Virus record (IMG/VR): IMGVR_UViG_3300048597_000240 | Span: 1 to 21,867 of that record | DNA length: 21,867 nucleotides | Direction: 5' to 3' (one strand) | Source: a virus | Part shown: positions 445-21,293 of the stretch, piece by piece | How positions within the stretch are numbered: the stretch's first letter is position 1 | Layout: every line of letters begins with the position of its first letter | Position numbers and translations under genes: made by a program | Notes under the pieces: model-generated | The model's input: only the letters and a program-made list of their open reading frames with translations | What the model was told of the DNA's origin: nothing | Databases searched by the model: none

Positions 445-969
445 ATGGCAATCCCCGCAATCGCCGCCGCACTCTCCCGCGGCCTGGTCGCCGATGTGCT
501 CGGCTCTGTCGCCGGGCTGCAACTCTCAATCGACGTCCGGCTCGATGCCGAGGGCCTCAAGCAACTCAAGGGCAAGCGCCGCACGGCGGTCTACCGTGCG
601 GTGAACCGCGCGGCGAAGCCCGTCAAGGAAGCCGTCATCGCCAACGCCTCCAAGCTGAAGCGAACCGGGGCGCTCGCCAAAGCCATCGGCACGAAGACCC
701 GCATCTACGCGGGTGGCGTGGTCACCGTCATCGGGCCGAAGATGAGCTTCAAGAGGCGGACCAAGACGAAGAAGAAGGGGCCGAACAAAGGCACTCGGAG
801 CAACATCCGGCCCTACCTCTACGCCAACCTCTTGGAGAAGGGCACGATCCGAGCGGCCGCGAAACCATTCCTGGAACCCGCTTGGGACGCCCACGGCCCG
901 GGCTACATGCGCCGGGTGCGGGCGGAGATCGCCGCGGAGCTGGCCGCCGTCATGCAATCGGGCGGGTAG
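445..969 (+). CDS. HK97 gp10-like tail/neck protein
   Basis: 174 residues. It matches the HK97 gp10 family of neck or tail-completion proteins. There is an N-terminal segment with the typical LKQLKGKRRTAVYRAVNRAAKPV helix pattern (about residues 39-61), then basic residues and a conserved C-terminal region with YANLLEKGTIRAAAKPFLEPA (about 129-149), the family hallmark (Y..ll.e.GT....a.PFl.pA). A very basic insert (KRRTKTKKKGPNKGT) sits near residues 101-115. It begins two bases after the previous gene and ends with a TAG that is also the first three bases of a TAGATTCGGG motif (967). It acts during virion assembly at the head-tail junction. The usual next gene, a tail terminator, is missing here and sits instead at 15120. 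Confidence 0.88.
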   Translation: MAIPAIAAALSRGLVADVLGSVAGLQLSIDVRLDAEGLKQLKGKRRTAVYRAVNRAAKPVKEAVIANASKLKRTGALAKAIGTKTRIYAGGVVTVIGPKMSFKRRTKTKKKGPNKGTRSNIRPYLYANLLEKGTIRAAAKPFLEPAWDAHGPGYMRRVRAEIAAELAAVMQSGG

Positions 970-976
970 ATTCGGG
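967..976 (+). promoter_or_regulatory. TAGATTCGGG motif before tail tube gene
   Basis: TAGATT at 967-972 followed by CGGG. The TAG is the stop of the gp10-like gene. Unlike most copies there is no start codon directly after it. The tail tube start lies 52 bases on, at 1019, so a transcript from here would carry a leader of about 40 bases with the CCCGAGGTT ribosome-site element (1004-1012). No TTGACA-like box is visible 16-18 bases upstream. It is read as a -10 element by comparison with the other copies. Confidence 0.5.
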
Positions 977-1018
977 GGAATTCCATCGGACCCCCCGAGC
1001 ACGCCCGAGGTTGCCCCC

Positions 1019-1462
1019 GTGCAAATCTGTTTCGACTGTGTGGCCAAGATCAACGACGGCGCGAGTTCCGCGTTCGTTGCAATCCCGGGCCTGGTGACGA
1101 TTCAACTCCCGGACCTCCAAGTTGAAGCCAAGGAAGACCGGGCCTTCTCGGCTTCCAAGATCAAGCAATTCGAACCCGGCCTCGGCGAGTATTCCGAAGT
1201 CGCTTTCACGATGGACTACACCGACGCCCAGCACGCCCGGTTCCGGGCACTCGCTCACGACGCGGTCGAAATCAAGATTTACCCGCCCGACCCTGACGGG
1301 GCCGGAGCCGAGTTGGCCGAGGTGGCGACCGTCGCCGGATTCTTCACCAAGATCGGCGGGCCGCGGCTCGAACGCGGAGCCGAAATGCGCATGGAACACT
1401 CGCTCAAGGTGAACTCGGTCACCTACGCCGACGCTCCGAACAACTCGCCCGTTGGGGTGTAA
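1019..1462 (+). CDS. Major tail tube protein (probable)
   Basis: 147 residues. It lies between the neck genes and the frameshifted tail chaperone, the fixed position of the major tail protein in siphophages. The sequence has the look of a tail-tube fold: an early 'IPGLVTIQLPDLQVE' strand pair, then 'FEPGLGEYSEVAFTMDY' and a late strand-rich region with GFFTKIGGPRLERGAEM, as in many lambda gpV/HK97-like tube proteins. GTG at 1019 was chosen because CGAGG (1006-1010) lies eight bases upstream. The same CCCGAGGTT context precedes the capsid gene, consistent with high expression of both. A 14-base perfect palindrome follows the stop at 1463-1476. No function other than tail tube is suggested by context; the similarity was judged by eye only. 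Confidence 0.75.
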   Translation: MQICFDCVAKINDGASSAFVAIPGLVTIQLPDLQVEAKEDRAFSASKIKQFEPGLGEYSEVAFTMDYTDAQHARFRALAHDAVEIKIYPPDPDGAGAELAEVATVAGFFTKIGGPRLERGAEMRMEHSLKVNSVTYADAPNNSPVGV

Positions 1463-1476
1463 TCCTCGGCCGAGGA
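1463..1476. other. 14-base palindrome after tail tube gene
   Basis: TCCTCGGCCGAGGA is perfectly self-complementary and begins right after the TAA of the tail tube gene. It could form a small hairpin stabilising the 3' end of the tail tube message or attenuating transcription. There is no T run after it, so it is not a standard terminator. Confidence 0.3.
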
Positions 1477-1518
1477 ACCCGACCATTCCGCCCGTTCCCC
1501 TACCAGGTGAGGTAGCAA

Positions 1519-1815
1519 GTGAAAGCGACTCGGCTCCGCCGCGTGTACCCCGTGCCCGATTTCCCCGGGCTGTTCGTTCGTGCCCTGACTGTCAACGAAG
1601 GGCAACGGCTCTTCGACCAGGTTGGCGCGGGGGCGGACGACGACCAGGCGGCGAAGCTGATGATCTCCGCCGCGGCCTGCGACCAGGACGGCGGGCCGCT
1701 GTTCAGTGGCCCCGAGGATCCCGAGTTCGGCGAGACGTCGAAAGACGTGCTCCGGGCACTCTGGGACGAAGCCGGCCGGGTGAACCGGATCACCGACCCA
1801 AAAGCCGCGGGCTGA
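1519..1815 (+). CDS. Tail assembly chaperone, short form (gpG-like)
   Basis: 98 residues, GTG start at 1519 with a strong AGGTGAGG ribosome site just upstream. It sits between tail tube and tape measure, where nearly all siphophages encode a tail chaperone made in two forms by a -1 frameshift. The short form ends with TGA at 1813-1815. It begins MKATRLRRVYPVPDFPGLFV, followed by an acidic helical region. In the lambda G/GT system this protein coats the tape measure and recruits tube subunits and is absent from the finished tail. The slippery heptamer C CCA AAA lies four codons before the stop (1797-1803). The assignment comes mainly from position and from the frameshift signal. Confidence 0.82.
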   Translation: MKATRLRRVYPVPDFPGLFVRALTVNEGQRLFDQVGAGADDDQAAKLMISAAACDQDGGPLFSGPEDPEFGETSKDVLRALWDEAGRVNRITDPKAAG

Positions 1816-2114
1816 CCGCGGACGAACGGTTCGAACTGCGGTTGGCCCTCCAACTCGGACGCACACGCGACGAACTCCGCGACTCGGTCACACTGGCCGA
1901 GTACGCGGACTGGCGGTCACTCTGGGCCGTCGAGCCGTGGGGCGGGCCGGTGGAAGACGAGCGGACGCGGCTCCTGGCCTCCTGGATGGTGAGCGCGTGG
2001 AGCAAGCGGAGCTTCGGCCCGCGGGACTTCGATTTCAGTTGGGGCGAACAACCCCGTCACAAGGTGAGCACGGCCGAGGGGGTGCGGTTACTCGCGGCTG
2101 GCATCAAGAGGTAA
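1519..2114 (+). CDS. Tail assembly chaperone, -1 frameshift product (gpGT-like)
   Basis: Reading frame 1519-1803, then a slip of one base back so that A1803 is read again, continuing to the TAA at 2112-2114. This gives 95 + 103 = 198 residues. The junction reads ...ITDPK/SRGLTADERF. The downstream frame has no sensible start of its own between 1803 and 2000 and is open through to just before the tape measure gene. Its extension (LALQLGRTRDELRDSVTLAE... EYADWRSLWAVEPW) has the helical, Trp/Tyr-rich look of the T domain, which in lambda contacts the tube subunit. The ratio of the two forms normally matters for tail assembly. There is no experimental proof here; support is the heptamer, frame direction, position and coding-like extension. 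Confidence 0.85.
1797..1821 (+). promoter_or_regulatory. Programmed -1 frameshift site CCCAAAA with hairpin
   Basis: The heptamer CCCAAAA at 1797-1803 is in the X XXY YYZ phase of the zero frame (GAC CCA AAA). After slipping, both tRNAs re-pair well (CCC, AAA). A 6-bp GC stem CCGCGG (1805-1810) / CCGCGG (1816-1821) with loop GCTGA follows. The spacer is one base, shorter than the usual 5-8, so the stem would be partly opened when the ribosome is on the heptamer, or a different fold is the stimulator. The zero-frame TGA lies inside the loop. Confidence 0.82.
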
Positions 2115-2120
2115 CGACAC

Positions 2121-3656
2121 TTGGCGAACAACTCCATCGGCAAGGCCGCTCTCATCCTCACCACGAACGACCGCGGGTTGGGCCGCGGCCTCGATGGGGC
2201 CTACTCCAAGCTCCAGGGCTTCAAGACTTCCATCACTTCCAGTTTCTCAAATCTCGCAATCGGCGGTGCGCTGACATCGCTGATCGGCGGCGGCAAAATC
2301 GTCGGCGACCTCCTGGATTCAATCCGCGAGAAAGCAGACTTATCCCAGCAAGCCCGTTCGCTCGGGATCCCCGTCGCCGCGTTCCAGGCAATAAAGGCGG
2401 CAGCAGCAAGCGCCGCCGTTGACGTCGGGGGATTAACGGAAGCCCTTATCAACATGAGCGGGAAAATTGCCGAAGCGAACGCGGGTAATCAGAACACCGC
2501 AGCCGCGTTCCGGGCAATTGGTCTTGAGGCGGCTGCGCTCAGGGGGAAACGGCTCGATCAACAGTTCCTGGAAATCGCCGGTGCATTGGGCCGCGTGCAG
2601 GATTCCGGGACACGCGCCCGGATGGCTCTAGCGGTGCTTGGGGAAGAAGCTGGGAAGATGCTCTTGCCGGTGCTCGCCGAAGGGACTTCAAGATTCGAAC
2701 GGTTCGCCGCCGAACAGAAAAGAACCGGTGAGGCCCTCAGCCAATCGGATGCACTCGGAATCGAACGGGCACGCGCGGCGCTCCCGAGAATTGGGGCCGC
2801 GTTCGATGGTGCGTGGACTCGGATTGTTGTCGCTGCAGCGCCATCAATCGAGCGAGTGGCAGGGGTTGCTACGCGGATCCTCACGCGACTGCAACCGCTC
2901 TTCAACGCATTCGCCGAGGGTGTCAGCACCTACTACGAGATTGTGGGATCGTTCATTGGCGAAGTCATCGACCTCGGTTCCGAACTTGTATCTGAACTCT
3001 CTGGCTGGCTGGGAGACGTATTCCCCGAGGCCAAAACTTTGTCGGTAAGAGAAATGGTGTTCGGACTTTTTGAGGGTATTGGGGTTGCTGGTGGGTACGC
3101 ATGGGACACGCTGAAAGCCGGGGCAGGCGCGTTCGTGCTCGGCGTGGTTGGAGTTTCAGACGCAGTTACTGCTCTGATCGAGGTGTTAGCGGACCTAGTG
3201 GACCTCGCAGGGGATTTGCCATCTGAATTGGGGGGAGCAACCTTCGAGCGCTGGGCCATGGATCTCAAGTCTTTTGCAAAAGATAGGGCCGAAACATCAA
3301 CAGAGGATCTGCGGGCTTGGGGCACTCGCCAGATGGAAGCATTTGGCAATTCTCAGTCCCAAGTGCACACTTGGTTTGCCAAACTCCGAGCCGGGAAACA
3401 GGACATCGAGCAAGCCGCGGACAAGGTGAACGCCGCCGCGCAGCAACTCGGGCAGGTGCTCAAGCCGAACGCCGCTCTCGACCGCGGCAGTAAGGAAGAC
3501 TTCTCGGCTCGCGTGCAGTGGCAGTTCCAGAACGAGCAAGCCGACAAAAACTTGGCCGAGGCTCGCAAGGTGGCGGCGAACACGGCCGCGACCGTGGACG
3601 CGGTGCGGGGCCTTGGCGATCAACTGTGGCGGCTCGCGCCGCTCGGGGGTGTGTGA
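2121..3656 (+). CDS. Tape measure protein
   Basis: 511 residues from a TTG start at 2121, with GAGGTAA eight bases upstream. It is the longest tail-region gene, helical and Ala-rich, and follows the chaperone directly, as tape measures do. The N-terminal part has alternating Gly-rich and helical segments (GKAALILTTNDRGLGRGLDG; SFSNLAIGGALTSLIGGGKI), and the middle (about residues 320-365) is hydrophobic with Gly and Val, as expected for the segment that enters the host membrane. The C-terminal third is polar and helical. At roughly 0.15 nm of tail per residue this predicts a short siphovirus tail of about 75 nm. Its TGA overlaps the ATG of the next gene (TGATG at 3654-3658). Confidence 0.9.
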   Translation: MANNSIGKAALILTTNDRGLGRGLDGAYSKLQGFKTSITSSFSNLAIGGALTSLIGGGKIVGDLLDSIREKADLSQQARSLGIPVAAFQAIKAAAASAAVDVGGLTEALINMSGKIAEANAGNQNTAAAFRAIGLEAAALRGKRLDQQFLEIAGALGRVQDSGTRARMALAVLGEEAGKMLLPVLAEGTSRFERFAAEQKRTGEALSQSDALGIERARAALPRIGAAFDGAWTRIVVAAAPSIERVAGVATRILTRLQPLFNAFAEGVSTYYEIVGSFIGEVIDLGSELVSELSGWLGDVFPEAKTLSVREMVFGLFEGIGVAGGYAWDTLKAGAGAFVLGVVGVSDAVTALIEVLADLVDLAGDLPSELGGATFERWAMDLKSFAKDRAETSTEDLRAWGTRQMEAFGNSQSQVHTWFAKLRAGKQDIEQAADKVNAAAQQLGQVLKPNAALDRGSKEDFSARVQWQFQNEQADKNLAEARKVAANTAATVDAVRGLGDQLWRLAPLGGV

Positions 3657-4639
3657 TGGCGATCACCGGCGTGGCCACGGAACAGTACGACGCCCGCGAA
3701 CACTCCTACGCCGAGGACGGTAGCCTCACCGGTACGCGGGCCTGGTCGGTCGATCTCAACCTCTCCGCCGCGACGGGGCCGGAGCTGGCCGATGTAGACA
3801 CGGCCGCGGCGGCAATCGTGCCGGTGGCTCGTTACGACGTCTACCCCGGACGGCCGGGGCTGCTGGCCCGCACGTTCTCGGTGAAGAACGACGGCGCGAC
3901 TCACTCTTGGGTTGTGACCGTGGGCTACTCGTCTCGATTCGAGACCGTGGAAGCGAAGGCCTCGGACCTGGCGGCGGACGGCTTCGACAACTCGACGTCT
4001 GGCCCCGGCGCTGGTGACATGAGCCAGAACGCCGAGGACAGGCCGTTCACGATTCGGAGCGTGAAGCGGACCCGGAACCGCGTGCTCGAATTCGACGCGA
4101 TTACCGAAGGCCGCGTGGAGAACACGGCGGGCGATCCGTTCGACCCGCCGCCCGAGTGGGAAGAGACGTTGCTGGGCTACCAAATCTCTTGGCGAGTTGC
4201 TCCGGCGAATCTGCGTTGGACCGCTGTCACTCCGCCGCTCGGGAGACCGGACTACCTCGATACTGTGAACTCCGCCGCCTTCCGAATCTGGGGCCGGACG
4301 CACGCGGCCCGCACGCTCCGCGTGGCCGACGTCACCGCCTCGATGGTCTGGGATCGTGTCAGCGTGTCGAGCGTCTCGACGCTGCAACTCGCTTTCGAAC
4401 TGTCCGTGGAACTACTCCACAAACCGGGCGGATGGAAACGGGAGTTGCTCAATCGCGGACGGCGCGAGTTCATCGACGCTGATGAACCGCTGCGCTGGAT
4501 CCTCGACGCGGCCGGGCAACCCGTGGCGGACCCCGTGCCGCTCCATGCGACGGGCCGACGGCTCTTGCCCGGTGAGGCCCTGAACTACATCACCGCGTGG
4601 GAGTACCCGGAAAAGAACCTGGTGGAGTTGTTCCAGTGA
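3656..4639 (+). CDS. Tail-tip protein of unknown fold
   Basis: 327 residues, ATG at 3656 overlapping the tape measure stop; upstream in-frame starts would lie inside the tape measure gene. No catalytic motif is seen. The sequence is beta-rich with many aromatic strands (ITAWEYPEKNLVELF at the end, LLGYQISWRV in the middle). The C-terminal half contains a pattern (GGWKRELLNRGRREFIDADEP ... DAAGQPVADPVPLHATGRRL) typical of uncharacterised phage tail proteins lying after the tape measure. By position it probably belongs to the distal tail or hub, but no homology to known distal tail proteins is claimed. It overlaps the next gene by GTGA at 4636-4639. Confidence 0.6.
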   Translation: MAITGVATEQYDAREHSYAEDGSLTGTRAWSVDLNLSAATGPELADVDTAAAAIVPVARYDVYPGRPGLLARTFSVKNDGATHSWVVTVGYSSRFETVEAKASDLAADGFDNSTSGPGAGDMSQNAEDRPFTIRSVKRTRNRVLEFDAITEGRVENTAGDPFDPPPEWEETLLGYQISWRVAPANLRWTAVTPPLGRPDYLDTVNSAAFRIWGRTHAARTLRVADVTASMVWDRVSVSSVSTLQLAFELSVELLHKPGGWKRELLNRGRREFIDADEPLRWILDAAGQPVADPVPLHATGRRLLPGEALNYITAWEYPEKNLVELFQ

Positions 4640-5730
4640 CCCAGCTATTCGGCCTCACCCGACCGACCGCCGACAAGGTTCGCCAGTGGCGGGATAGGAC
4701 CACGTCGGACCCTTCCCCCACGGGTCGGGATATCCCTTCGATGCGGTTGGCGTGGTGCGTGCTCGACAACTACTCCGCGGGGGCCGAGCCGGTGCGCGTG
4801 CCGGGCCGGGCCGTCCGGTGGTTGCAGTGGGGCGAGTGGATCGACGGCGAGCCGGAAACGGTGTGGATCGTTCGCCGAGGTGTGGACCCGCTGTTGAAAC
4901 GCGGCTCGACTGCTCACCCATTGTTCTGGCTCTGCGAGCACACGGCCTACGACGACGTGGACGGCAAGCCGATCATGACCCCGGTGCCGCTGCCACTCTC
5001 GGATCTCACCGTAGGAACGACCTGGCCGCACGACGCGGCCGCGTGCTGGTCGCAGGGTGTTCCCCCGTCACATGGCGAAATGCTCTTCTATCACCGCGAC
5101 GTCTACGGCGGGCAGTGGGTCCGATTGCCGATCGGCGCGCTCGGCCAGGTGCTCGCGGTGGTGGATGAAGGCGGGCTTGGGACTCGGCTCCAACCCGGTT
5201 GGGTGACGCCGCCGACGGCCCTCACTCTCCCCGAGGTTGAGCCGCGTTGTGTGATGGCCGACGGCGACGACCCCGCCCCGCCCTACTGGTGGTGTGTGTC
5301 CGGGGATTGCGTCCAGGCTGCCGAACAACCCGAGGATTCAACCGGACCCTACTCGTCTTTCTCGGAGTGTGCCGAACCGTGCGGCGCGACGTCGCCGCCC
5401 CCGCCGCCCCCGCCGCCGGATAACTGCTTCGGCTACCCGTGCTCGGTGAGTGTGACCCTGACCGACGGCACCAACACGGCGACGGCAACACTCGACCCGG
5501 CTGGGCAGGTTGGCACCAACTGCTATTGGTTCAAGCACAACCCCGGCCTTACCATCCCCGGGCATTCCGCCGCCTACTGCTACTTCAACTGCTACGGGCC
5601 GACGACCGCGATTGTGGCCTACGGCAGTGGTGGCACCACGTCGGCGTTGCCCACGCTGGTGGGCGCTGATTGGGTGCTCACGATTGCTTCCGGCGTGACT
5701 CTCACGTTCTCCAGTGGTGCGCCTTGCTGA
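4636..5730 (+). CDS. Tail fibre/adhesin with Cys module and polyproline hinge
   Basis: 364 residues, GTG at 4636 overlapping the previous stop. The N-terminal part (1-205) is Trp-rich, beta-rich and unrecognised. Residues 219-249 form a small Cys module (WWCVSGDC...CAEPC, four Cys), followed by eight consecutive prolines (254-261). The C-terminal domain (about 264-364) is rich in Thr, Ser, Gly and Tyr with several Cys (CFGYPC, NCYWFKHN, YCYFNCYG). This order of body, disulfide-type module, rigid hinge and beta domain suits a surface adhesin or minor tail protein at the tail tip. Receptor binding is inferred from architecture and position only. The Cys pairs would need an oxidising environment, which fits a virion surface. 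Confidence 0.6.
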   Translation: MTQLFGLTRPTADKVRQWRDRTTSDPSPTGRDIPSMRLAWCVLDNYSAGAEPVRVPGRAVRWLQWGEWIDGEPETVWIVRRGVDPLLKRGSTAHPLFWLCEHTAYDDVDGKPIMTPVPLPLSDLTVGTTWPHDAAACWSQGVPPSHGEMLFYHRDVYGGQWVRLPIGALGQVLAVVDEGGLGTRLQPGWVTPPTALTLPEVEPRCVMADGDDPAPPYWWCVSGDCVQAAEQPEDSTGPYSSFSECAEPCGATSPPPPPPPPDNCFGYPCSVSVTLTDGTNTATATLDPAGQVGTNCYWFKHNPGLTIPGHSAAYCYFNCYGPTTAIVAYGSGGTTSALPTLVGADWVLTIASGVTLTFSSGAPC

Positions 5731-5942
5731 CACTCGCCGAAATCCACGCGATGTTCGACGCGATCCGCGCCGAGTTGCCCCCGGCCTCGAAACCACGCCC
5801 TCGATGCGAGCACCTCGGGCAGCGCCTGGAGTTCCGGCCCGGGTGCTCGGGCTGGATGTGTAGACACGTCTGCGACCTCGGGCATTCGCCCGCGATCCCG
5901 GGGAGCACCTGCCAGCGCTGCGAGGATCACACGGCCGAGTAG
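5724..5942 (+). CDS. Small Cys-rich protein
   Basis: 72 residues if it starts at TTG 5724, which overlaps the previous stop; CTG 5727 or ATG 5751 are alternatives. An N-terminal helix (LAEIHAMFDAIRAEL) is followed by a Cys/His-rich half: CEHLG near residue 28, then GCSGWMCRHVC and CQRCEDH near the C-terminus, with seven Cys in about 40 residues. The CxxC at the end and the paired Cys suggest a small metal-binding or zinc-ribbon-like fold. Similar short C-x-H-L-G proteins are, from memory, frequent in planctomycetes, but no function is known to me. Its TAG stop forms the start of the TAGATTCGGG motif at 5940. Confidence 0.6.
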   Translation: MLTLAEIHAMFDAIRAELPPASKPRPRCEHLGQRLEFRPGCSGWMCRHVCDLGHSPAIPGSTCQRCEDHTAE

Positions 5943-5951
5943 ATTCGGGCC
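5940..5951 (+). promoter_or_regulatory. TAGATTCGGGCC leaderless promoter, sigma-like gene
   Basis: TAGATT at 5940-5945, then CGGGCC, then ATG at 5952. The TAG is the stop of the Cys-rich gene. No Shine-Dalgarno lies within 15 bases of the ATG. The spacing puts the expected transcription start at or next to the A of ATG. Confidence 0.6.
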
Positions 5952-6305
5952 ATGGAAACCACTCGACGCGGCAACGTGAAAGTGACCAACGCCGAACTCC
6001 GCCGCTGGGTGGTCGAAACCCAAGTGACGATGCGGCCCTGCCTGGAATTCTGCACGGCGATCCAACGGATTGCTCTTGGCGTTCGAGAACAGTTCCACCG
6101 AACATCGTCGCCCGAAGATTTCGCGTCTGACTGTTTGGTGAAGGTGCTCCTGGCCGTGCCGAAGATGGACCCTTCTCGAAACCTGTTCGGTTACATCACG
6201 AACGTCTGCATCAACCTGGCCCGCTCTCAACATCACGCATCCGAACGCGAGCGGGCGAAGCTCCAGGCGTTCCATGCTTCCCGTCACTCCGAGGGTAAGG
6301 AATGA
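5952..6305 (+). CDS. Sigma-70 region 2-like phage sigma factor (gp55-like)
   Basis: 117 residues. The central part (about residues 55-92) looks like sigma region 2: EDFASDCLVKVLLAVPKM, then DPSRNLFGYITNVCINLARS, where N-x-F-x-Y-x-T plus a later Asn/Arg matches the T4 gp55 late sigma pattern (N-P-F-A-Y-F-T...N). A basic tail (HHASERERAK) follows. No sigma region 4 is present, as in gp55, which reads only the -10 box. It would direct host RNA polymerase to phage late promoters. It lies just before the lysis-position gene and is itself preceded by a TAGATTCGGGCC element, so autoactivation is possible. It ends in an ATGA overlap with the protease gene. Similarity was judged by eye; a small unrelated helical protein cannot be excluded. 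Confidence 0.6.
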   Translation: METTRRGNVKVTNAELRRWVVETQVTMRPCLEFCTAIQRIALGVREQFHRTSSPEDFASDCLVKVLLAVPKMDPSRNLFGYITNVCINLARSQHHASERERAKLQAFHASRHSEGKE

Positions 6306-7450: not shown

Positions 7451-7453
7451 TCC

Positions 7454-7793: not shown

Positions 7794-7813
7794 TGTCGGC
7801 ACCTCTTGAGTGT

Positions 7814-11256: not shown

Positions 11257-11402
11257 GCTGCGCCCTCTGAACCGTCGCGTTCTCTCTTCCGGCCGGGCTG
11301 CGTCGAACACGAACCGCAGTCTTACCCCGGGTCGGAATGAACTCGATCGGCACGGGCAAGGTTACCCCCAGATTCGGCGACCGTCAAGAGTTGGTCGATC
11401 TT

Positions 11403-11540
11403 CCCCCTTATTGGGGAATGCCTCCCATGGGGCATTTTCCCCACCTTGGGGAAAGCCCCCTGGGGAAAATCTCCCATGGGGGTTTTTCCCCAAGGTGGGA
11501 ATTGGCAACCATGGGGGTTTTTCCCCAAGAGGCATTTCCC
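11403..11540. repeat. Array of TGGGGAAA/TTTTCCCCA palindromic repeats
   Basis: Three direct 20-base units of the form CCCATGGGGnnTTTTCCCCA at 11424-11443, 11473-11492 and 11508-11527 (the last begins ACC). Inverted partners TGGGGAA... lie at 11412 and 11461 and a shorter one at 11447. The pair 11461-11492 makes a near-perfect 32-base palindrome centred on CCATGG (two mismatches per half); 11412-11443 makes a similar one with a one-base shift. Spacings of 49 and 35 are not codon multiples. Such iteron-like clusters are typical of replication origins or cooperative operators. Confidence 0.7.
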
Positions 11541-11581
11541 AATAAGCTCAAAAACTCCCATCTGGGTGAGATTCCGAATAA

Positions 11582-12313: not shown

Positions 12314-12355
12314 GGCCCGACTGCCTCAGAGGTTGGCAGTCGAACCAGTCGGGCC
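12314..12355. repeat. Inverted repeats with CAGTCG elements beside attP core
   Basis: GGCCCGACTG (12314-12323) is perfectly inverted as CAGTCGGGCC (12346-12355). A nested pair GACTGCC / GGCAGTC lies at 12319-12325 and 12335-12341. In all there are three CAGTCG elements, one reversed. The right arm includes the acceptor end of the tRNA fragment. These are candidates for integrase core or arm sites. Confidence 0.5.
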
Positions 12356-12394
12356 GGCGGGATTTGAACCCACGACCTCTTGCACCCCAAGCAA
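12349..12394 (-). other. Candidate attP core: 3' part of tRNA-Pro(GGG)
   Basis: Read leftward, this segment matches tRNA positions 28-73: an anticodon arm with loop TTGGGGT (anticodon GGG), variable loop AGGTC, T arm GTGGG-TTCAAAT-CCCGC with all five pairs, acceptor half CGGCCCG, then A73. G72 fits the C1-G72 pair usual in bacterial tRNA-Pro. The D arm and 5' acceptor are absent, so it is not a gene here; phages carry such fragments to rebuild the host tRNA on integration. It lies 137 bases from the integrase start. The exact crossover limits need the host attB. Confidence 0.78.
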
Positions 12395-12433: not shown

Positions 12434-12476
12434 CCGAGAGCGTGCCGGTTGTAGGGGGGCCTACTCTCGGTAGATT
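12434..12476 (+). promoter_or_regulatory. Integrase promoter with TAGATTCC
   Basis: TAGATT at 12471-12476, followed by CCGC. A TTGTAG box 16 bases upstream could serve as -35. An inverted repeat CCGAGAG (12434-12440) / CTCTCGG (12464-12470) ends exactly at the TAGATT and encloses a smaller GTAGG/CCTAC pair, suggesting an operator. The GTG at 12481 is out of frame with integrase; the transcript would have a leader of about 50 bases before ATG 12531. Confidence 0.5.
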
Positions 12477-12530
12477 CCGCGTGCAGGAATCACCCCGTTC
12501 GCAGCTGGCATTATTGCCACTGGTGTTCAG

Positions 12531-14508: not shown

Positions 14509-14930
14509 GCACCCCCGCCAAGCCGCACCTCTACTACTTGGTAGCACCGGTGCAACTCGTGCCAATGCCACGCGAACTCGCTGTCAAGTTGGGCGACGGC
14601 GGTGAGGCCGAGCGACTCAATTTCTCGATCCCAGTCTGTACGGTCGCGGACCCCGCTACAATCGTCGCCTACGGCGGCGGCACGGGGCCAGCTGGCGAGC
14701 AAACCCGGCAGTATCTCGACTCTCAGGTGCTCCTTGGACTGCCCCCGCAAGTGCTGTGGGTCAGGTGTGTGAACGAGGCCGCGCCGCCTCGAATCGTCCG
14801 CACATCGCACGCGCCAACCCAAGCCCGGATCGACGGCGGCGAAGTGGTGAGATGGGACTTGGGTAGGGCACTCACTGCCGTGGGGCTGGCCCTCTGGCGC
14901 GACCCCGCGTTGCAGTTGCCGTTGCTCTGA
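14505..14930 (+). CDS. Unknown protein in spike operon
   Basis: 141 residues, ATG at 14505 in an ATGA overlap with the lectin-like gene. It starts MSTPAKPHLYYLVAPVQLVP and contains a Gly-rich turn (AYGGGTGPAG), mostly beta character, and a hydrophobic C-terminus (LGRALTAVGLALWRDPALQL). No family recognised. As the last gene of the integrase-spike unit it may be a spike assembly factor or a third spike part. Confidence 0.55.
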   Translation: MSTPAKPHLYYLVAPVQLVPMPRELAVKLGDGGEAERLNFSIPVCTVADPATIVAYGGGTGPAGEQTRQYLDSQVLLGLPPQVLWVRCVNEAAPPRIVRTSHAPTQARIDGGEVVRWDLGRALTAVGLALWRDPALQLPLL

Positions 14931-14932
14931 TA

Positions 14933-14952
14933 GCAAGCGGTCCAGGGCTTGC
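14933..14952 (+). terminator. Possible terminator of integrase-spike unit
   Basis: Stem GCAAGC (14933-14938) / GCTTGC (14947-14952) with loop GGTCCAGG, followed by GGTTCTTC, three bases after the last stop of the unit. The stem is short and the T run weak. Confidence 0.35.
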
Positions 14953-15071
14953 GGTTCTTCGATCGACGCGGCTACCTTGGGAGCGTGGCAGGACTTTTCC
15001 AGGCTGTGCTCGCCGCCTGGCCGAATTGAAGCGAACGGGAGAGGGTAACGCCTCGGTTCGAACTGCCAGAT

Positions 15072-15099
15072 GAAGGCCTTGGGGAAACCCGGGGCCTTC
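15072..15099 (+). terminator. Hairpin terminator before tail terminator gene
   Basis: Outer stem GAAGGCC (15072-15078) / GGCCTTC (15093-15099), inner GGG/CCC pair around AAA, followed by TGGCTTTGG. It stands ten bases before the TAGATT element at 15109, the same arrangement as at 21251-21283. Confidence 0.55.
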
Positions 15100-15108
15100 T
15101 GGCTTTGG

Positions 15109-15119
15109 TAGATTCGGCC
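15109..15119 (+). promoter_or_regulatory. TAGATTCGGCC leaderless promoter, tail terminator gene
   Basis: TAGATT at 15109-15114, CGGCC, then ATG at 15120; no ribosome site precedes the ATG. It lies in non-coding DNA after a hairpin, so the motif is not a by-product of coding sequence here. Confidence 0.62.
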
Positions 15120-15500
15120 ATGAGCAGCCTTGAAGAAGCCATCGTAGACCGCTTGCTCACTGGATCGGCCGTCGCCAACCTGGTGGATGACCGGGTGTTC
15201 CCCGACGATGTGCCGAGCCACACGACCCCGTCTCCATGGATCGTGTATGCGATCCCAAGTTCTGAAGCGACTGACCTTTTGGCCGCAAACCTCGACTCGG
15301 TCAACACCGTCGAAGTGAGCGTGTTCGCCGAGAGTAAAGCCACTGCGGTGGAGCTGGCGAACTTGGTCCGAGACCGCTTGCACAAATGGCAAGGCGGTCT
15401 GGTTCATCGGGCACTCTGGGAAAGGAACGACCGGTATGACGTTGACGGCGGCTTCGTGGTGGTAGTTTCCTTCCGGGTCTGGGCGTTCGCGTCGGGCTGA
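15120..15500 (+). CDS. Tail terminator / completion protein (DUF3168-like)
   Basis: 126 residues, ATG at 15120. It matches the short tail terminator family (DUF3168, gp17-like): N-terminal helix SLEEAIVDRLLTGSAVANLV, DDRVFPDDVPSHTTPSPWIVYA, a strand-rich centre (VNTVEVSVFAESKATAVELA) then VRDRLHKWQGG and a last strand with VVVVSFRVWAF. In HK97-type phages this gene normally follows gp10 and precedes the tail tube gene; here it stands upstream of the small terminase with its own promoter. It would form the ring that stops tail growth and joins the head. The family call is fairly secure from the overall pattern. Confidence 0.8.
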   Translation: MSSLEEAIVDRLLTGSAVANLVDDRVFPDDVPSHTTPSPWIVYAIPSSEATDLLAANLDSVNTVEVSVFAESKATAVELANLVRDRLHKWQGGLVHRALWERNDRYDVDGGFVVVVSFRVWAFASG

Positions 15501-15657
15501 CGCTAAGCCAAGTGACAGTTAGCTATGGGTTGTAGTGTCGCCGCCCCCGGGTAGGGGGGCAAAATGTTGACGGCGACCTCGGCCCCGACCGCCCGCCTAC
15601 CCGCGCGCGAATCGATCCGATCATTTGTTTGTTTCCGGAACCTCTGGGATTCGAGCC
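15501..15657. other. Non-coding region, candidate cos or pac site
   Basis: 157 bases before the small terminase gene. Two interleaved inverted repeats: GTCGCCG (15537-15543) / CGGCGAC (15571-15577) and CGGGTAGG (15548-15555) / CCTACCCG (15596-15603). G- and C-runs alternate with AAAATGTTGA. cos and pac sites commonly lie just upstream of the small terminase, and an HNH gene beside the terminase is typical of cos phages. The cut position cannot be read from the sequence. Confidence 0.45.
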
Positions 15658-15984
15658 GTGAAGCCGCCGAAGCCCCCGATTAAGCTCGATCAAGAGGCCC
15701 TCAAGCTCTGGAACCGGCACTCCATTCGGTTGAAACAGGCCGGTATCCTGTCGGATCGAAGTATCGAATCTTTCCTCTTGCTGTGCCAAACTTGGGGCAT
15801 GCTGCAAACCCTGATGGAGTATCAGCCAGGCGGGGCGAACTTCCGCGAGATGACGCAACTGAACCAACTCCACAAGAACTATCAGGCCCTGGCCCGCCAG
15901 TTCGGCTTGCTCCCCGCCGCGGCCCGAGCGGCCAAGATGGAAGAGCAACCGCCCAAGCCCAAGGCCGGGGAATTCGAGTTCTGA
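15658..15984 (+). CDS. terS: Terminase small subunit (P27 family)
   Basis: 108 residues from GTG 15658; an earlier TTG at 15625 is in frame but gives an unusual N-terminus. The pattern fits the P27 family: PP-x-x-L-D-x-x-A-x-x-x-W (IKLDQEALKLWNRHSIRLKQ), glLs-x-x-x-x-x-x-F-x-x-x-C, a helical middle and QFGLLPAAARAAKM near the end, the family signature FGLtPaaRa. It recognises the packaging site and loads the large subunit. The start is preceded by GATTCGAGCC, a degenerate copy of GATTCGGGCC without the TA of the -10 box. One base separates its stop from the HNH gene start. Confidence 0.88.
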   Translation: MKPPKPPIKLDQEALKLWNRHSIRLKQAGILSDRSIESFLLLCQTWGMLQTLMEYQPGGANFREMTQLNQLHKNYQALARQFGLLPAAARAAKMEEQPPKPKAGEFEF

Positions 15985-15985
15985 C

Positions 15986-16249
15986 GTGCCCAACATCACC
16001 AACTCGAAACCGCCGATCCCGAAGCGACCGCCGAGGCCCTACCGCGGATCCTCGACGGCCCGCGGCTACGACCACGCTCACCGGCTCCTTCGCCGCCAGG
16101 TGCTCGCCGAGCAACCGGTTTGCTCGATGTGCTCGGGCGCCTTCTCTCACCACTTGCACCACGTCGATGGTGACAACCGCAATACTACTCGCGAGAACGT
16201 GACCGGCGTTTGCGAACGCTGCCACATGCAACACCACGCCCGGGCATAG
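15986..16249 (+). CDS. HNH endonuclease
   Basis: 87 residues, GTG at 15986. Classic small phage HNH nuclease: CSMC, then LHHVDGDNRNTTRENVTGVC (H-H ... N ... N), then CERCHMQHH with the closing Cys pair and His. The zinc site would be the two CxxC pairs, and the beta-beta-alpha metal motif spans HHVDGDN to CHMQHH. HNH proteins encoded next to the terminase in HK97-type phages assist terminase in cos cleavage, so this is the likely role here, though homing is an alternative for free-standing HNH genes. Its TAG stop begins the TAGATTCCGGG element at 16247. Confidence 0.92.
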   Translation: MPNITNSKPPIPKRPPRPYRGSSTARGYDHAHRLLRRQVLAEQPVCSMCSGAFSHHLHHVDGDNRNTTRENVTGVCERCHMQHHARA

Positions 16250-16257
16250 ATTCCGGG
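16247..16257 (+). promoter_or_regulatory. TAGATTCCGGG leaderless promoter, large terminase
   Basis: TAGATT at 16247-16252, CCGGG, then GTG at 16258. The TAG is the HNH stop codon. No ribosome site precedes the GTG. Confidence 0.6.
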
Positions 16258-17877
16258 GTGCGTGTCCCTGACGAACTCATCCGAACAAAATCCGATCGCG
16301 CTGCCGTCGATTCCGGGCATTGGTTCGACCAGGCCGCGGCTGATCGTGTCGTTCGATTCTGCGAGCGGTTCTTGGTGCCGACTCGCGGCCCTTCTGCCGA
16401 CAAGCCCGCCACGTTGATACCCTGGCAGCGTGTATTGCTTTGCACGCTCTTCGGCTGGAAGCGGCCCGACGGGCGGCGGCGGTTCCGGTTTGGCTGCCTC
16501 TTCGTGCCGCGCCAGAACGGCAAGAGCTTCATCGCCTCGGCGATCTCCCTCTACATGCTCGCCGGCGACGGGGAACCGGGGGCCTACTGCGTGGTGTCCG
16601 CGGTGACTGGCTTTCAGACGGGGGTTGTGTTCGACGAAGTCTTGAACAGCGTGAAGGCCTCCCCGGAGTTGTCGGCCGCGTTGAAGCCCGTTCCCTCGAT
16701 ACGCGAAATCCGATACCCGAAACGGAACGCGAAACTGAAGGGTTTGAGCAACGAAGGTTGGGGCAAGCTCGGGAACCCGCCGCATTGCGCGGTGATGGAT
16801 GAGTTTTGCTTCTGGCCGAACTACAAGCCATACGAAGCTCTGAAGACCGGGATGGACTCCCGGTTGCAACCGCTGCTCTTTGCCATCAGCACTTCGGGGC
16901 ATGATCGGAGTTCCGTCGGCTACGAAGTCTGGGAATACGCTCGCGGGATCCTGGCCGGGACGATCACCGACGTGGCCTTCTGCCCGGCGATCTACGCGGC
17001 CGAGCCGGAAGCGGATATCCAGGATCCCGAGGTGTGGAAGGCCTCGAACCCATCGCTCGGCGTGACGATCCGCATGGAAGAGACGGCCGCTTGGGCCGAG
17101 CGCGCGAAGCACTCGAAAACGGAAGAGCTTCAGTTCCGCCAGTACCGTTTGAACCAATGGGTGAGTTCCTGCAACCAGTTCCTCGACCTCGACCAACTCC
17201 AGCGCTGCGCCGTGCCCCGCGACCAGTGGCCGGACCTGACCGGGCTGGATTGCTACATCGGTGTGGATTTGGCCCAAACCCGTGACCTGGTCGCCGTGGT
17301 GTTCATCACGCCACACGGCGGGAAATACTACTTCGAACACCACTCCTTCGCCTGCCGTGTTGCAGTGGAGATGCGAGAAGCGCAAAACCTGGTGAGGTAT
17401 TCAATCTTCGAAGCTGACGGCTCGCTCACCGTGCATGAAGGGAACATCATCGACTTTGAAGACGTCCGCTCTTTTATTCGGAACATTGCGAAGGTGAGAA
17501 ACGTTCGGGTGATTGCATTCGACCCGCGTGAGGCCTCCGATTCAATTCTGATTCTCAAGGCCGAGGGCTACCCGGCAGAACAATACCCGCCGGGGCCGCT
17601 GTATTTTGATGGCCCAATGAAGCGGCTCGAATCTTGGGTGAACGATGGCAAGCTCGTCTTCGACGGTGCGGCTATCGCACTTTGGCAGGCGCAAAATCTG
17701 GAGAGCAAAACGGATCACCGGGAACTGATGTGCCCGATGAAACCCCGGGGCGACAACGCCGCGAAGATTGACTTGTGGTACGCCGGACTCATCGCCGTCG
17801 GGAAGACGATCTTGGGCGAAGCTCAGAACCAGGCGGACGCAATCCAGGGCGATTCCGTGGGCTTCGCGTGCGTGTAG
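16258..17877 (+). CDS. terL: Terminase large subunit
   Basis: 539 residues from GTG 16258, chosen because it follows the TAGATTCCGGG element directly; the ATG at 16210 lies within the HNH gene. N-terminal ATPase: Walker A VPRQNGKS (83-90), Walker B AVMDE (178-182), coupling motif near FAISTSGHD. C-terminal RNase H-like nuclease: Asp337 in YIGVDLAQ, Asp422 in IAFDPREASD, and the last acidic residue near KIDLWYAG. It belongs to the HK97/Terminase_1 family. It packages DNA into the prohead through the portal and makes the end cuts, here probably with the HNH protein. All key residues seem intact, indicating a functional phage. Its TAG stop begins the next TAGATTCCCGC element. Confidence 0.97.
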   Translation: MRVPDELIRTKSDRAAVDSGHWFDQAAADRVVRFCERFLVPTRGPSADKPATLIPWQRVLLCTLFGWKRPDGRRRFRFGCLFVPRQNGKSFIASAISLYMLAGDGEPGAYCVVSAVTGFQTGVVFDEVLNSVKASPELSAALKPVPSIREIRYPKRNAKLKGLSNEGWGKLGNPPHCAVMDEFCFWPNYKPYEALKTGMDSRLQPLLFAISTSGHDRSSVGYEVWEYARGILAGTITDVAFCPAIYAAEPEADIQDPEVWKASNPSLGVTIRMEETAAWAERAKHSKTEELQFRQYRLNQWVSSCNQFLDLDQLQRCAVPRDQWPDLTGLDCYIGVDLAQTRDLVAVVFITPHGGKYYFEHHSFACRVAVEMREAQNLVRYSIFEADGSLTVHEGNIIDFEDVRSFIRNIAKVRNVRVIAFDPREASDSILILKAEGYPAEQYPPGPLYFDGPMKRLESWVNDGKLVFDGAAIALWQAQNLESKTDHRELMCPMKPRGDNAAKIDLWYAGLIAVGKTILGEAQNQADAIQGDSVGFACV

Positions 17878-17885
17878 ATTCCCGC
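17875..17885 (+). promoter_or_regulatory. TAGATTCCCGC leaderless promoter, portal gene
   Basis: TAGATT at 17875-17880, CCCGC, then ATG at 17886. The TAG is the stop of the large terminase gene. No ribosome site before the ATG. Confidence 0.6.
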
Positions 17886-19130
17886 ATGCTGAAACGACTC
17901 CGGGCCAAGCTCCGCAACTACTTCCAGGGCTGGTATCCGCTCTCCGCGGTGCCGTCCGGTTTCTTCGGCACGCCGAGGCCCGGGGCCGTCGAGACGACGG
18001 AACAGGCCTTGACGATCTCCGCGTTCTGGGCGGGCCTTCGCCTGTACCAAAACGTGGTTGGCTCTCTCCCCCTGGTGACCTACCGGCGAGCGAGCAACGG
18101 CCGCGAAGTGGCTGCCGATCACCCGGCCTATAACCCGTTGTGCTATCGACCGAACCCGGCCCAGAGCCGCGCTACCTGGATCGACCAGGTGGTGAAGGAC
18201 ATGATCCTTGGCACCGGGAATTCGCTCACATTGATCCGCCGCACTGAAGGCGGCGACGTGCTCGGCCTGTACCCGGTGAAGCCCGAGCACGTCCGGCAAA
18301 TCATTGTGGACGCGGATTGGAATAAGGCGTTCCTGATTCAGACGCCCCAAGGCCAAGAGGTGTACTTCGACTCCGAGGTACTGCACCTTTTCTACTTCTC
18401 GCTCGATGGGATCACCGGCGTGCCGCTGCTTCGGTTTGCCGGCGAGAGCCTCGGCCTTCACCGCCAGGTACTCGAAAGCGCCAGCGCCTACTTCCGCAAT
18501 CGGGCCAGGCCTTCGGGATACATCAAGTTCCCCGGGAAGTTGAACCCGGGGGCAATCGCCGAAATCAAGAAGTTCTTCAAGGAAGAGTTCGCCGGAACTG
18601 AGAACGCGGGCAAGGTGCCCGTCTTGGCCGACGGCGCGGAGTTCTTTCAGTTCGACGACACGAACGCCCGCGATGCCGAGTTGCTCGCGGCGATGGGTGC
18701 TTCACCCGACGACGTGGGCCGCTGGCTCAACCTCTCAGCGCTCGCCCTCGGCAAGCTCGACCGTGGCACCTATTCGAACCTCGGGGCCGACAACGCGGCA
18801 ACCTATCAACGGTCGATCCGACCGTTCCTCAACCGGATCGAACTCGAACTCAACTGGAAGTTGTTCGGCCCGAACTCCGAGTTCTACGCCGAGTTCCTCA
18901 CGCAAGCGATCCTTCAAGGCGACCCGGCCCAGCAAGCGGCCGTCGCAAACATCGGGATCATGAACGGCTCGGTGCTCCGCAGTGAACAACGCCAGTGGTT
19001 GAACCTGCCCCCGGTGCCTGGCATGGAACGGCCCCTGTTCCCCGCGAACATGTGGCAACTCGACGCCTCGGGCAATCTGATCCCCACGAACCCCACGGCG
19101 GGCACCAATGGTCCGGATCTATCTGCGTAG
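17886..19130 (+). CDS. Portal protein (HK97 family)
   Basis: 414 residues, ATG at 17886. It matches the HK97-type portal: N-terminal helix, then TISAFWAGLRLYQNVVGSLPLV (the conserved v.a.v..ia..ia.lPl), YNPLCYRPNPAQSRATWIDQ, LGTGNSLTLIRR, LYPVKPEHV, YFDSEVLHLFYFSLDGITGV, then AYFRNRARPSGYIKFPG and the wing and crown helices, ending with a flexible tail. Twelve copies form the DNA channel at one capsid vertex. Its length is normal for the family. The last 23 bases overlap the protease gene start (19108). Confidence 0.96.
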   Translation: MLKRLRAKLRNYFQGWYPLSAVPSGFFGTPRPGAVETTEQALTISAFWAGLRLYQNVVGSLPLVTYRRASNGREVAADHPAYNPLCYRPNPAQSRATWIDQVVKDMILGTGNSLTLIRRTEGGDVLGLYPVKPEHVRQIIVDADWNKAFLIQTPQGQEVYFDSEVLHLFYFSLDGITGVPLLRFAGESLGLHRQVLESASAYFRNRARPSGYIKFPGKLNPGAIAEIKKFFKEEFAGTENAGKVPVLADGAEFFQFDDTNARDAELLAAMGASPDDVGRWLNLSALALGKLDRGTYSNLGADNAATYQRSIRPFLNRIELELNWKLFGPNSEFYAEFLTQAILQGDPAQQAAVANIGIMNGSVLRSEQRQWLNLPPVPGMERPLFPANMWQLDASGNLIPTNPTAGTNGPDLSA

Positions 19131-19680
19131 TGCGGCCCCCGTGTTGATCCGTGCGAGCGCCGCCCCCGTCGAGATTCGGGCCGAGCGGCGGTTGTGCTTT
19201 TACGCGGCCGTCTTCGATGTCGAAACCACGATCACCGAACAGGGCAACACGTTCCGCGAAGTGATCCGCCCCGGGGCCTTCAGCGAGACGTTGACCCGCT
19301 CGGCGGCGGTGTATGCCTGCGTCGAGCACCGCCGAGAAGAGAGCTTCGCCACGGTCGCCGACGGCTTGCTCTTGCAGCAAGATGCCCGCGGGCTTTTCGC
19401 AAGCTGCTACCTTCCAGACTCCGCAATCGGTAACCGCGTGCTCGACGACGTGCAGGCCGGGCGGCTCACCGGTTGTTCGTTCGCATTCCGGACGCTCCGG
19501 GATCGGTGGCATAACCGGGCCGATATCCGTAGCCCCTTCCAAATCTGCGAACTCCTGGCCGTCGAACTGGTAGACGTCGCTGTCACCGCTCGCCCGGCCT
19601 ACCCGGCGACGGTGGTTTCGGTTCGATCCGATCCGAAACACCGCGAGCGACGGTTGCGGTTGGCGCGCGTCCGTGCCTAA
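19108..19680 (+). CDS. Prohead protease (HK97 family)
   Basis: 190 residues from ATG 19108, overlapping the portal gene by 23 bases; GTG 19141 is an alternative that would remove 11 residues. It matches the HK97 prohead protease: FYAAVFDVET, REVIRPGAFSETL, then His74 in CVEHRREESFA and Ser124 in TGCSFAF as the catalytic pair, with ARGLFASCYLPDSAIGN between them and VAVTARPAYPATVVSV near the end. It cleaves scaffold or N-terminal segments of capsid protein during maturation and is then lost. It stands in the standard portal, protease, capsid order. Confidence 0.92.
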   Translation: MVRIYLRSAAPVLIRASAAPVEIRAERRLCFYAAVFDVETTITEQGNTFREVIRPGAFSETLTRSAAVYACVEHRREESFATVADGLLLQQDARGLFASCYLPDSAIGNRVLDDVQAGRLTGCSFAFRTLRDRWHNRADIRSPFQICELLAVELVDVAVTARPAYPATVVSVRSDPKHRERRLRLARVRA

Positions 19681-19726
19681 TCTCTGGGACTGGCACTTCC
19701 GCCGGTTCTCTCACCCGAGGTTCTGA

Positions 19727-21211
19727 ATGTCCGAAATTGTCCTGGACCCGCCCGGCTATGTGGCCGGGCATGCCCCCGTTCGCTTCCGCAACACGCCGCC
19801 CGCCCCCGCTCCGGCCCCAACTCCGCCCGCCCCGGCTCCAACTCCGGCCCCCGCTCCGCCCCAACAACGCAACACCGGGCCGCGCACGTCCGCACAGATC
19901 CAGGCGGACCGCGCGGCGATGATTGCCGAGGCCGAGGGCCTCCAGACCCGAGCCGCAACCGCTCCGCTCTCGGCCGAGGAAGACGCCCGGTTCGATTACT
20001 GCCTGACTGAAGCCGAGCGGCTGGCCGGGGAGCTGGCCACGGCCCAGCGTGCCGAGCGGCTCACGGCCCAACGTGCAGCGCTCCAACAACCTGCCCGACC
20101 GGCCCCGGCTCCTGGGGCCGGTGTGGTCACCCCGCAAACTCGAAACGCGGGCGGCACCGCTGAAGGCCTCCGGCTCTGGCTCCGCTCGTTCACTGACGAA
20201 GCCGACTTCTCGACCGACGCCCGCTTCCGTGCTCAGCAATCCGGGTTCCCAATCGGGAGCACCTCGGCCCGAATGCAATGCGACTTCGGCGGTTCCTTGA
20301 ACAAAGCCAAACGGCGGGCAATCTCGAAGGGCGGAACCAACACCGGCGCTGAATTGATCCCGAAGACCTACGCCGATCGCGTCACCGAATACATCACGTT
20401 TTTTTCGAGTCTGATCGGCTACGTCGATTCCGAAGTGACCGCCGACGGGAATGATCGCACCTACTTCCGGATTGACGATACGGCGTTGATCTCCAGTTAC
20501 ATCACGGCTTCTTCCGGAACCGAACTCGAACCGACGATCCCAGATGTGGACATTGCCACAGGGGCCGTGGTCATCAAAGCCTTTGAAATCACCTCGGGCT
20601 ACCACAAGCTCACCCGCCAGGCCCTCCGCGATTCGGCGGTAACCCTGGAAGACAAGGTGGCGAAAGCGGTCGCCAACGCTCACGCTCGCCGCATCGAGCG
20701 GGACATGATTCTTGGGGGCGGCACAACAGCGGCTCGCGGGATCTTGACCGCCGCCACGGCCTACGGCGCGACCACGTACGACGACTTCACGGCCGACCTG
20801 ATTGAGGACGTCTACTTCAGCGTGCCCGAGCAATACCGCAACGGTTGTATCTGGCTGACGTCCTCTTCCGGCATGGCTCGACTCCGCAGAAAGCTGAAGG
20901 ACTCGACGGGCCGAAGCTTGTTCAGCCAGGCCATCGAAGACGGTGCCGAGGTGCTCTACCTGCACGGCCGGCCGGTGGTAACCTCCAGTTACATGCCCGG
21001 CTTCGCCGCCAACCAAAAGCCGCTCGTCTTCTTCCATCCGATGATGTACATGTTGAGGCTCGTCGAAGGCCAAATGCTCGACGTCCTCAAGGAAAAGTTT
21101 CACCCGCACATCGGTTATGCAAGTGGCATGGCCTTTGGTGGTGACTACCTCGGGCCAGCGAATACGAACATCTGCATCACGCTCGACGCCAACCCGGGCA
21201 ACGGCTCGTAA
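19727..21211 (+). CDS. Major capsid protein (HK97 fold) with long N-terminal domain
   Basis: 494 residues, ATG at 19727 with CGAGG (19716-19720) in the same CCCGAGGTT context as the tail tube gene. An N-terminal Pro/Ala-rich segment (24-45), a helical scaffold-like delta region (54-120: IQADRAAMIAEAEGLQTRAA, LTEAERLAGELATAQRAERL), a second Pro/Ala linker (121-135), then the HK97 fold from about 144: ELIPKTYADRVTEYITFFSS, FEITSGYHKLTRQALRDS, GTTAARGILTAAT, YRNGCIWLTSSSGMARLRRK. The delta domain is normally removed by the prohead protease. The Pro/Ala extension in front of it is unusual. Confidence 0.95.
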   Translation: MSEIVLDPPGYVAGHAPVRFRNTPPAPAPAPTPPAPAPTPAPAPPQQRNTGPRTSAQIQADRAAMIAEAEGLQTRAATAPLSAEEDARFDYCLTEAERLAGELATAQRAERLTAQRAALQQPARPAPAPGAGVVTPQTRNAGGTAEGLRLWLRSFTDEADFSTDARFRAQQSGFPIGSTSARMQCDFGGSLNKAKRRAISKGGTNTGAELIPKTYADRVTEYITFFSSLIGYVDSEVTADGNDRTYFRIDDTALISSYITASSGTELEPTIPDVDIATGAVVIKAFEITSGYHKLTRQALRDSAVTLEDKVAKAVANAHARRIERDMILGGGTTAARGILTAATAYGATTYDDFTADLIEDVYFSVPEQYRNGCIWLTSSSGMARLRRKLKDSTGRSLFSQAIEDGAEVLYLHGRPVVTSSYMPGFAANQKPLVFFHPMMYMLRLVEGQMLDVLKEKFHPHIGYASGMAFGGDYLGPANTNICITLDANPGNGS

Positions 21212-21227
21212 CCGGTCTTAACCGGTT
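21210..21227 (+). terminator. Hairpin at capsid gene stop
   Basis: AACCGGT (21210-21216), loop CTTA, ACCGGTT (21221-21227), a perfect 7-bp stem overlapping the TAA stop. No T run follows, so it may protect the capsid message 3' end or act with the second hairpin. Confidence 0.4.
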
Positions 21228-21250
21228 GCTCGACTCGCAACGCTCCACGT

Positions 21251-21271
21251 CGCCCGGCCAGGTGCCGGGCG
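21251..21271 (+). terminator. Hairpin terminator between capsid and connector genes
   Basis: CGCCCGG (21251-21257) / CCGGGCG (21265-21271), loop CCAGGTG, followed by GAATCGTTTCG and then the TAGATT element at 21283. It is the same hairpin-then-promoter arrangement as at 15072-15109 and, on the other strand, 7836-7824. Confidence 0.5.
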
Positions 21272-21282
21272 GAATCGTTTCG

Positions 21283-21293
21283 TAGATTCGGGC
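21283..21293 (+). promoter_or_regulatory. TAGATTCGGGC leaderless promoter, connector gene
   Basis: TAGATT at 21283-21288, CGGGC, ATG at 21294. It lies in non-coding DNA after two hairpins; no ribosome site precedes the ATG. Confidence 0.65.

Follow-up and report, generated by a model that had tools for sequence, protein, structure and literature searches.

Start-codon-adjacent TAGATT/TANATA elements as candidate leaderless late promoters in a small phage and in diverged viral contigs

Late genes and TAGATT copies in the phage genome

The viral record IMGVR_UViG_3300048597_000240 of IMG/VR, a stretch of 21,867 nucleotides referred to below in its full length as the window, carries on its plus strand genes for a sigma-like protein, a gp17-like tail terminator, the large terminase subunit (TerL), the portal and a head-tail adaptor, each of which begins directly behind a short element composed of the hexamer TAGATT and a G+C-rich spacer (Table 1). 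The record is classed as linear and possesses a direct terminal repeat of 127 bp (1-127 and 21741-21867). This repeat and the adaptor gene that closes across it indicate a complete closed genome of ~21.74 kb, so that the seven TAGATT copies found in it represent the whole set.

A first-pass annotation of this DNA had located these copies, and every claimed position was borne out, with no other occurrence on the plus strand and 0 on the minus strand; the shuffle expectation is 1.8 +/- 1.4 for both strands. The extended word TAGATTC[GC][GC][GC]C, attributed by the same annotation to the whole set, is exact in four of the seven (5940, 15109, 17875 and 21283) compared with 0.04 by chance, the copies at 967, 12471 and 16247 differing at the last base or bases. 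In five copies the start codon lies 11-12 bases past the first T, as had been noted, which leaves a gap of 5-6 nt behind the hexamer, but this placement does not extend to the copies at 967 and 12471. The former, which has counterparts at the same gp10/tail-tube junction in two of the contigs described below (L005 9439 and G001 13417), would from its position probably be a promoter with a short leader and not a leaderless one. The latter is probably not leaderless either. A point missing from the annotation is that in four copies the TAG of the element at the same time terminates the reading frame before it, namely in those at 967 (gp10-like gene), 5940 (open reading frame 5670-5942), 16247 (HNH gene) and 17875 (TerL). 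The start codons of TerL, portal and adaptor are backed by N-terminal alignment with a relative. When a weight matrix built from the other phages only was applied to both strands of the whole window, four of its sites were the four best positions; the site at 5940 stays outside these four on account of its gap of 6.

Table 1. Element copies, associated genes and hairpins of the window
Feature	Position	Strand	Remarks
Element TAGATTCGGGCC	5940..5951	+	Abuts ATG 5952 of the sigma region 2-like gene; gap 6
Element TAGATTCGGCC	15109..15119	+	Abuts ATG 15120 of the gp17-like tail terminator gene
Element TAGATTCCGGG	16247..16257	+	Abuts GTG 16258 of TerL
Element TAGATTCCCGC	17875..17885	+	Abuts ATG 17886 of the portal gene
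Element TAGATTCGGGC	21283..21293	+	Abuts ATG 21294 of the head-tail adaptor gene
Element copy	967..977	+	Overlaps the gp10-like stop codon; GTG 1019 (probable tail tube gene) follows 52 nt downstream
Element copy	12471..12480	+	60 nt 5' of the integrase ATG 12531; a nearby GTG opens only 67 codons
Sigma-70 region 2-like protein	5952..6305	+	117 amino acids, without region 4; candidate reading factor, behind the 5940 copy
Tail completion gp17 / tail terminator gene	15120..15500	+	PF11367, E 3e-11
Terminase large subunit gene	16258..17877	+	GTG start; PF20441, PF03354, phrog_9
Portal gene	17886..19130	+	PF04860, E 7e-69
Head-tail adaptor gene	21294..21867	+	Closes over the contig ends; phrog_442
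Terminator-like hairpin (AGGCC...GGCCT + TCTGGCTTT)	15074..15097	+	Ends 11 nt 5' of the 15109 element
Strong hairpin (CGCCCGGC CAGGT GCCGGGCG)	21251..21271	+	After the capsid gene, 11 nt 5' of the 21283 element

Recurrence of the element in other viral contigs

The literal word TAGATT is absent from L005, the nearest relative (TerL 75% and portal 71% identical), but inspection of the homologous starts of this contig uncovered a drifted counterpart of the form TANATA + CSGGC + ATG. It occupies the starts of TerL (TAGATACCGGC/ATG), portal (TAAATACCGGC/ATG) and adaptor (TACATACCGGC/ATG); further copies precede the small terminase and a tail gene, and another lies at the gp10/tail-tube junction, so that the element is kept at the same genes in a close relative even if the exact word is not. 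Contigs L064 and L157 (G+C 47-49%) and G008 (58%), in which TerL is about 32% identical and the base composition differs considerably, carry it at gp17, at TerL or the open reading frame just before it, at the portal and at the adaptor. Six start-adjacent copies are found on the late strand of G001, a contig recovered through a tRNA-Pro attP core common to the window phage; they precede the small terminase, TerL, portal and tail genes.

Viral contigs were also scanned with CTANATACCGGCATG, which matched 46 further contigs. At least three element-like starts on one strand were present in only three of these (L172, L177 and L170), and most of the remaining ones, with a single match each, were treated as possible chance. 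Among the contigs found by the motif itself, G011 has the element at gp17, TerL, portal, tape measure and another tail-region gene, and G012 has it at HNH, small terminase, portal, adaptor, tail terminator, endolysin and two other genes. G010 (49.6 kb) carries ten copies, at the small and large terminase, portal, adaptor and others, and has no detectable protein in common with the other element-bearing contigs. Only distant named phages related to G010 and G012 were found. Four contigs suspected from their TANNNT count (L007, L033, L070 and L091) displayed no shared word and were discarded.

Nine element-bearing contigs were counted in this way: the window, L005, G001, L064, L157, G008, G010, G011 and G012. 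In these, TANATW precedes open ATG/GTG starts 13, 32 and 4 times at gaps 4, 5 and 6, respectively, and 0-3 times at every other gap between 0 and 25. In an unguided hexamer count TAAATA comes out on top (19 occurrences against 0.12 expected), and TACATA, TAGATA and TAGATT also place high; TATAT[AT] occurs only 4 times at gaps 4-6. The generic TANNNT class shows little enrichment at the element gaps in the same phages, most sites ending in A, and the identified genes behind the element are almost all late genes. No peak exists in the controls, be it among 17,163 starts of 108 control phage contigs (11 matches at gaps 4-6) or among 4,846 starts in 295 kb of planctomycete plasmids (2 matches); the planctomycete plasmids without an element peak are pPLIM01, pISOP01, pSINAC01, pPL17-1, pOJF2_1 and pPL62-1.

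Some variation was observed in the gp17 genes of this group. That of the window is located upstream of the terminase genes and not between the gp10-like and tail tube genes, an order common to L064, G008 and G011. The gp17 domain is fused to a LamG-like domain in G001 (L149:14929-16800) and has extra C-terminal residues in G011 (L177:375-1319). One element of L064 is followed by a gene (L064:2470-2880) for a 23S rRNA intervening-sequence-like protein (PF05635, below cut-off).

Signals surrounding the element

No Shine-Dalgarno sequence is present at the five element starts of the window, where the duplex energy ranges from 0 to -3.4 kcal/mol, in contrast with -5.4 to -11.5 kcal/mol at the other listed window genes. 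Most other genes do have such pairing, which supports the contrast drawn by the first-pass annotation with the capsid, tail tube, chaperone and tape measure genes. The mean is -1.5 at element starts vs -3.2 at random positions. No -35 box was found either (best match 2.81 vs 2.71 +/- 0.14 in shuffled sequence), and TGn was not seen at element sites. The spacer is G+C-rich, and in 27 sites no T occupies any of the first three spacer bases.

Terminator hairpins are located 8-35 nt upstream of several copies (L005 7775, G008 7172, G008 13223, L157 5561 and window 15109), which means that a fresh transcription start is needed there. The hairpin that precedes the 21283 copy has a weak T-run and was passed over by the terminator-scoring script. 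Roughly half of the elements open with a TAG or TAA that also ends the upstream reading frame, an overlap that saves space. Selection does not act on the stop codon as such, as shown by the TAC versions in relatives.

Comparison with known promoter systems

Zheng et al. 2011 (PMC3160421) compiled a catalogue of leaderless genes led by TA-like signals about 12 bp 5' of the start, and TANNNT leaderless promoters have been confirmed experimentally in D. radiodurans (PMC12340547). The resemblance to the leaderless geometry of Deinococcus and Actinobacteria proposed in the first-pass annotation is real for the placement of the box. As in the TANNNT promoters of Deinococcus-Thermus and Actinobacteria, a -10-like box stands at the start codon in the absence of a Shine-Dalgarno sequence, and gaps of 4-6 nt after the hexamer place its first T at 10-12 nt, the distance of leaderless TANNNT promoters. 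The resemblance does not hold for the identity of the box, which is here TANATA or TANATT, followed by a G+C-rich spacer and concentrated on phage late genes. A TANNNT consensus with an uninformative middle fits the TAGATT of the window phage alone, while TANATA dominates across the group. Considering that the TANNNT class is hardly enriched and that most sites end in A, equating the element with the Deinococcus/actinobacterial leaderless promoters is doubtful.

The late promoters of phage T4 (TATAAATA, read by gp55) consist of a TATA box at the -10 position, followed by an AT-rich spacer and devoid of a -35 (PMC2988020). They share with the element a box ending in A, the lack of a -35 and the service of late genes, and the window phage encodes a sigma-like protein limited to region 2 that is a candidate counterpart of gp55. 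They differ by their 8-bp TATAAATA with an AT-rich downstream segment, as opposed to the 6-bp TANATW and G+C-rich spacer described here, where the box is moreover directly at start codons and a sigma-like gene was not detected in most of the other element-bearing contigs. The T4 system further requires the sliding clamp gp45 and the coactivator gp33. The element is closer to the late promoters of T4 than to the ordinary TANNNT of Deinococcus and Actinobacteria, and departs from each of these two systems in one defining feature. The late promoters of jumbo phages such as AR9 (AACA-6N-TA/G) are also a short phage-wide late consensus; a multisubunit RNA polymerase of its own and 5' untranslated regions of 26-491 nt set AR9 apart (PMC5312081).

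Host group and attachment site

The reading frames of two contigs point to Planctomycetota. The end of G011 carries an ECF sigma together with a zinc-finger anti-sigma-like reading frame, a pair which we take to be of planctomycete style, and the DUF1559 gene of G008 (PF07596, E 1.8e-15) has plasmid relatives that are all planctomycete. A host in the same phylum may be inferred for the window phage. Host searches in genome contigs returned only distant TerLs, and no planctomycete relative appeared among the matches listed when plasmids were searched with the trypsin-like, sigma-like, integrase and portal proteins. Few Shine-Dalgarno genes have previously been noted in Planctomycetota (PMC5397173). 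Our coverage of the literature, which is incomplete, yielded no promoter-mapping papers for this phylum and none on such promoters in planctomycete phages.

The 3' half of a tRNA-Pro(GGG)-like gene (12349-12391, minus strand) adjoins the integrase gene of the window and is a probable attP core, common to L136/G001, L137 and L138. As a route to the host, this core led to G001 and not to a host genome; the tRNA-Pro(GGG) of the true host should hold CTTGGGGTGCAAGAGGTCGTGGGTTCAAATCCCGCCGGCCCGA. The plasmid pPLIM01 of Planctopirus limnophila (L134) contains a full head and tail gene set, in an order much like that of the window phage and without the element. With such genes it looks like a phage-plasmid. 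The divergent early region of the window (11400-11545) is densely packed with CCCCAAGG, CCATGGGG and TTTTTCCCC repeated in inverted and direct orientation, a possible replication origin or operator array.

A model of late promoters reduced to a -10 box

The model favored here, to which a probability of roughly three in four is assigned from sequence data, is that the elements are -10-only late promoters that give rise to leaderless mRNAs and are dedicated to late genes. Each element would constitute a complete minimal late promoter, made of a -10-like box (TAGATT in the window phage, TA[A/G/C]ATA in its relatives) and a G+C-rich discriminator of about CSGGC, with no -35. RNA polymerase would open the DNA at the element and start at, or within 1-2 bases of, the start codon. 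The mRNAs of the sigma-like, gp17, TerL, portal and adaptor genes are accordingly predicted to be translated without a leader, whereas a short one is expected from the copy ahead of the tail tube gene (967). Late phage genes may draw on an alternative host sigma to have the element read, or on phage-encoded specificity factors, in the window phage perhaps the region-2-only product of 5952-6305. Leaderless late promoters, as first annotated, find support in the placement of the box, the missing Shine-Dalgarno sequences, the upstream terminators and the recurrence at the same genes of diverged phages; two of the seven copies and the generic TANNNT identity do not fit that description. Other considerations weigh against the model: in the 27-site logo TA.AT was fixed by the search, the hexamer count alone being left free; G010, G011 and G012 were found by the motif, which selected their first match but not the others; and the eight contigs beside the window are metagenomic and mostly fragments.

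The elements could instead be ordinary leaderless TANNNT promoters of the host housekeeping sigma, as in Deinococcus and Actinobacteria, with nothing specific to phages. The published geometry agrees with this explanation, and the presence of the element in otherwise unrelated phages, in particular in G010 which shares no detectable proteins with the others, favors a component of the host. The slight enrichment of the TANNNT class, the final A of most hexamers and the near restriction to late genes speak against it, as does the planctomycete phage-plasmid pPLIM01, which is without the element; the lack of a peak at planctomycete plasmid genes also disfavors a housekeeping sigma. This explanation is consequently regarded as doubtful, and the reading factor is probably not the host housekeeping holoenzyme as it acts at ordinary planctomycete genes.

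Another candidate is a minimal sigma encoded by the phage, reduced to region 2 like gp55 of T4, which in the window would be the product of 5952-6305 and would activate itself, its own gene standing behind a copy of the element. The AlphaFold model of this protein (pLDDT 74) has as best Foldseek match the region 2 of sigmaE bound to -10 DNA (TMq 0.57, E 0.3), and its structure matches include sigma region 2 with -10 DNA (5or5, 4lup) and, at rank 10, T4 gp55 (7d7c). The lack of region 4 (no PF08281 match) suits a promoter without a -35, of which the T4 late promoters offer a precedent, and the hexamer is uniformly TAGATT in the window phage but TANATA in G001, the contig with the common attP core. 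Profile similarity to sigma region 2 is weak (PF04542, E 8e-4; NCBIfam TIGR02937, E 0.012). On the other hand, the Pfam score is below the curated cut-off and the Foldseek E value is high. No relative of the protein was found in viral contigs, and PF04542 has no match in G001, G008, L005, L064, L157, G010 and G012, several of which are fragments. The sigma of G011, at the contig end, is of the ordinary ECF type, possessing both region 2 and region 4. The absence of such a gene from most element-bearing contigs, including the 49.6-kb G010, implies that it is not the common reading factor unless divergent versions were missed, and this hypothesis is judged unlikely.

A role in translation, either as a ribosome entry element of a non-Shine-Dalgarno type or as a termination-reinitiation junction, would explain the tight spacing to the start codon and the stop codon overlap seen in four of the seven window copies. 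It is very improbable given that copies which adjoin a hairpin and are not overlapped by a gene from upstream (window 15109 and 21283, L005 7775, G008 7172 and 13223) need new transcription, and that TAC versions cannot act as stops. The conserved copies of the gp10/tail-tube junction lie some 30-50 nt away from the start codon, which fits a promoter. The shuffles, the weight matrix from which the window phage was left out, and the results for relatives and controls dispose of chance or an artefact of base composition.

Beyond the -10-only promoters themselves, a wider proposal is advanced tentatively: diverged phages whose hosts belong to a single group (planctomycetes for at least two of them) might have in common a dedicated late-gene transcription system in which promoters of this type, fused to start codons, are read by a non-housekeeping factor and make the late mRNAs that carry them leaderless. 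This factor would be a host sigma adopted by the phages, or minimal phage sigmas exchanged between them.

Biological significance

Leaderless genes are known as a trait of whole bacterial lineages. Here, predicted leaderless starts mark the late genes of diverged small phages and of one unrelated phage, and if this proves true, leaderless initiation would be part of phage temporal control. The element, 11 bases in length, can be searched for in viral metagenomes, where it could serve to link contigs and fix start codons. It raises the direct question of which sigma reads TANATA-CSGGC-ATG.

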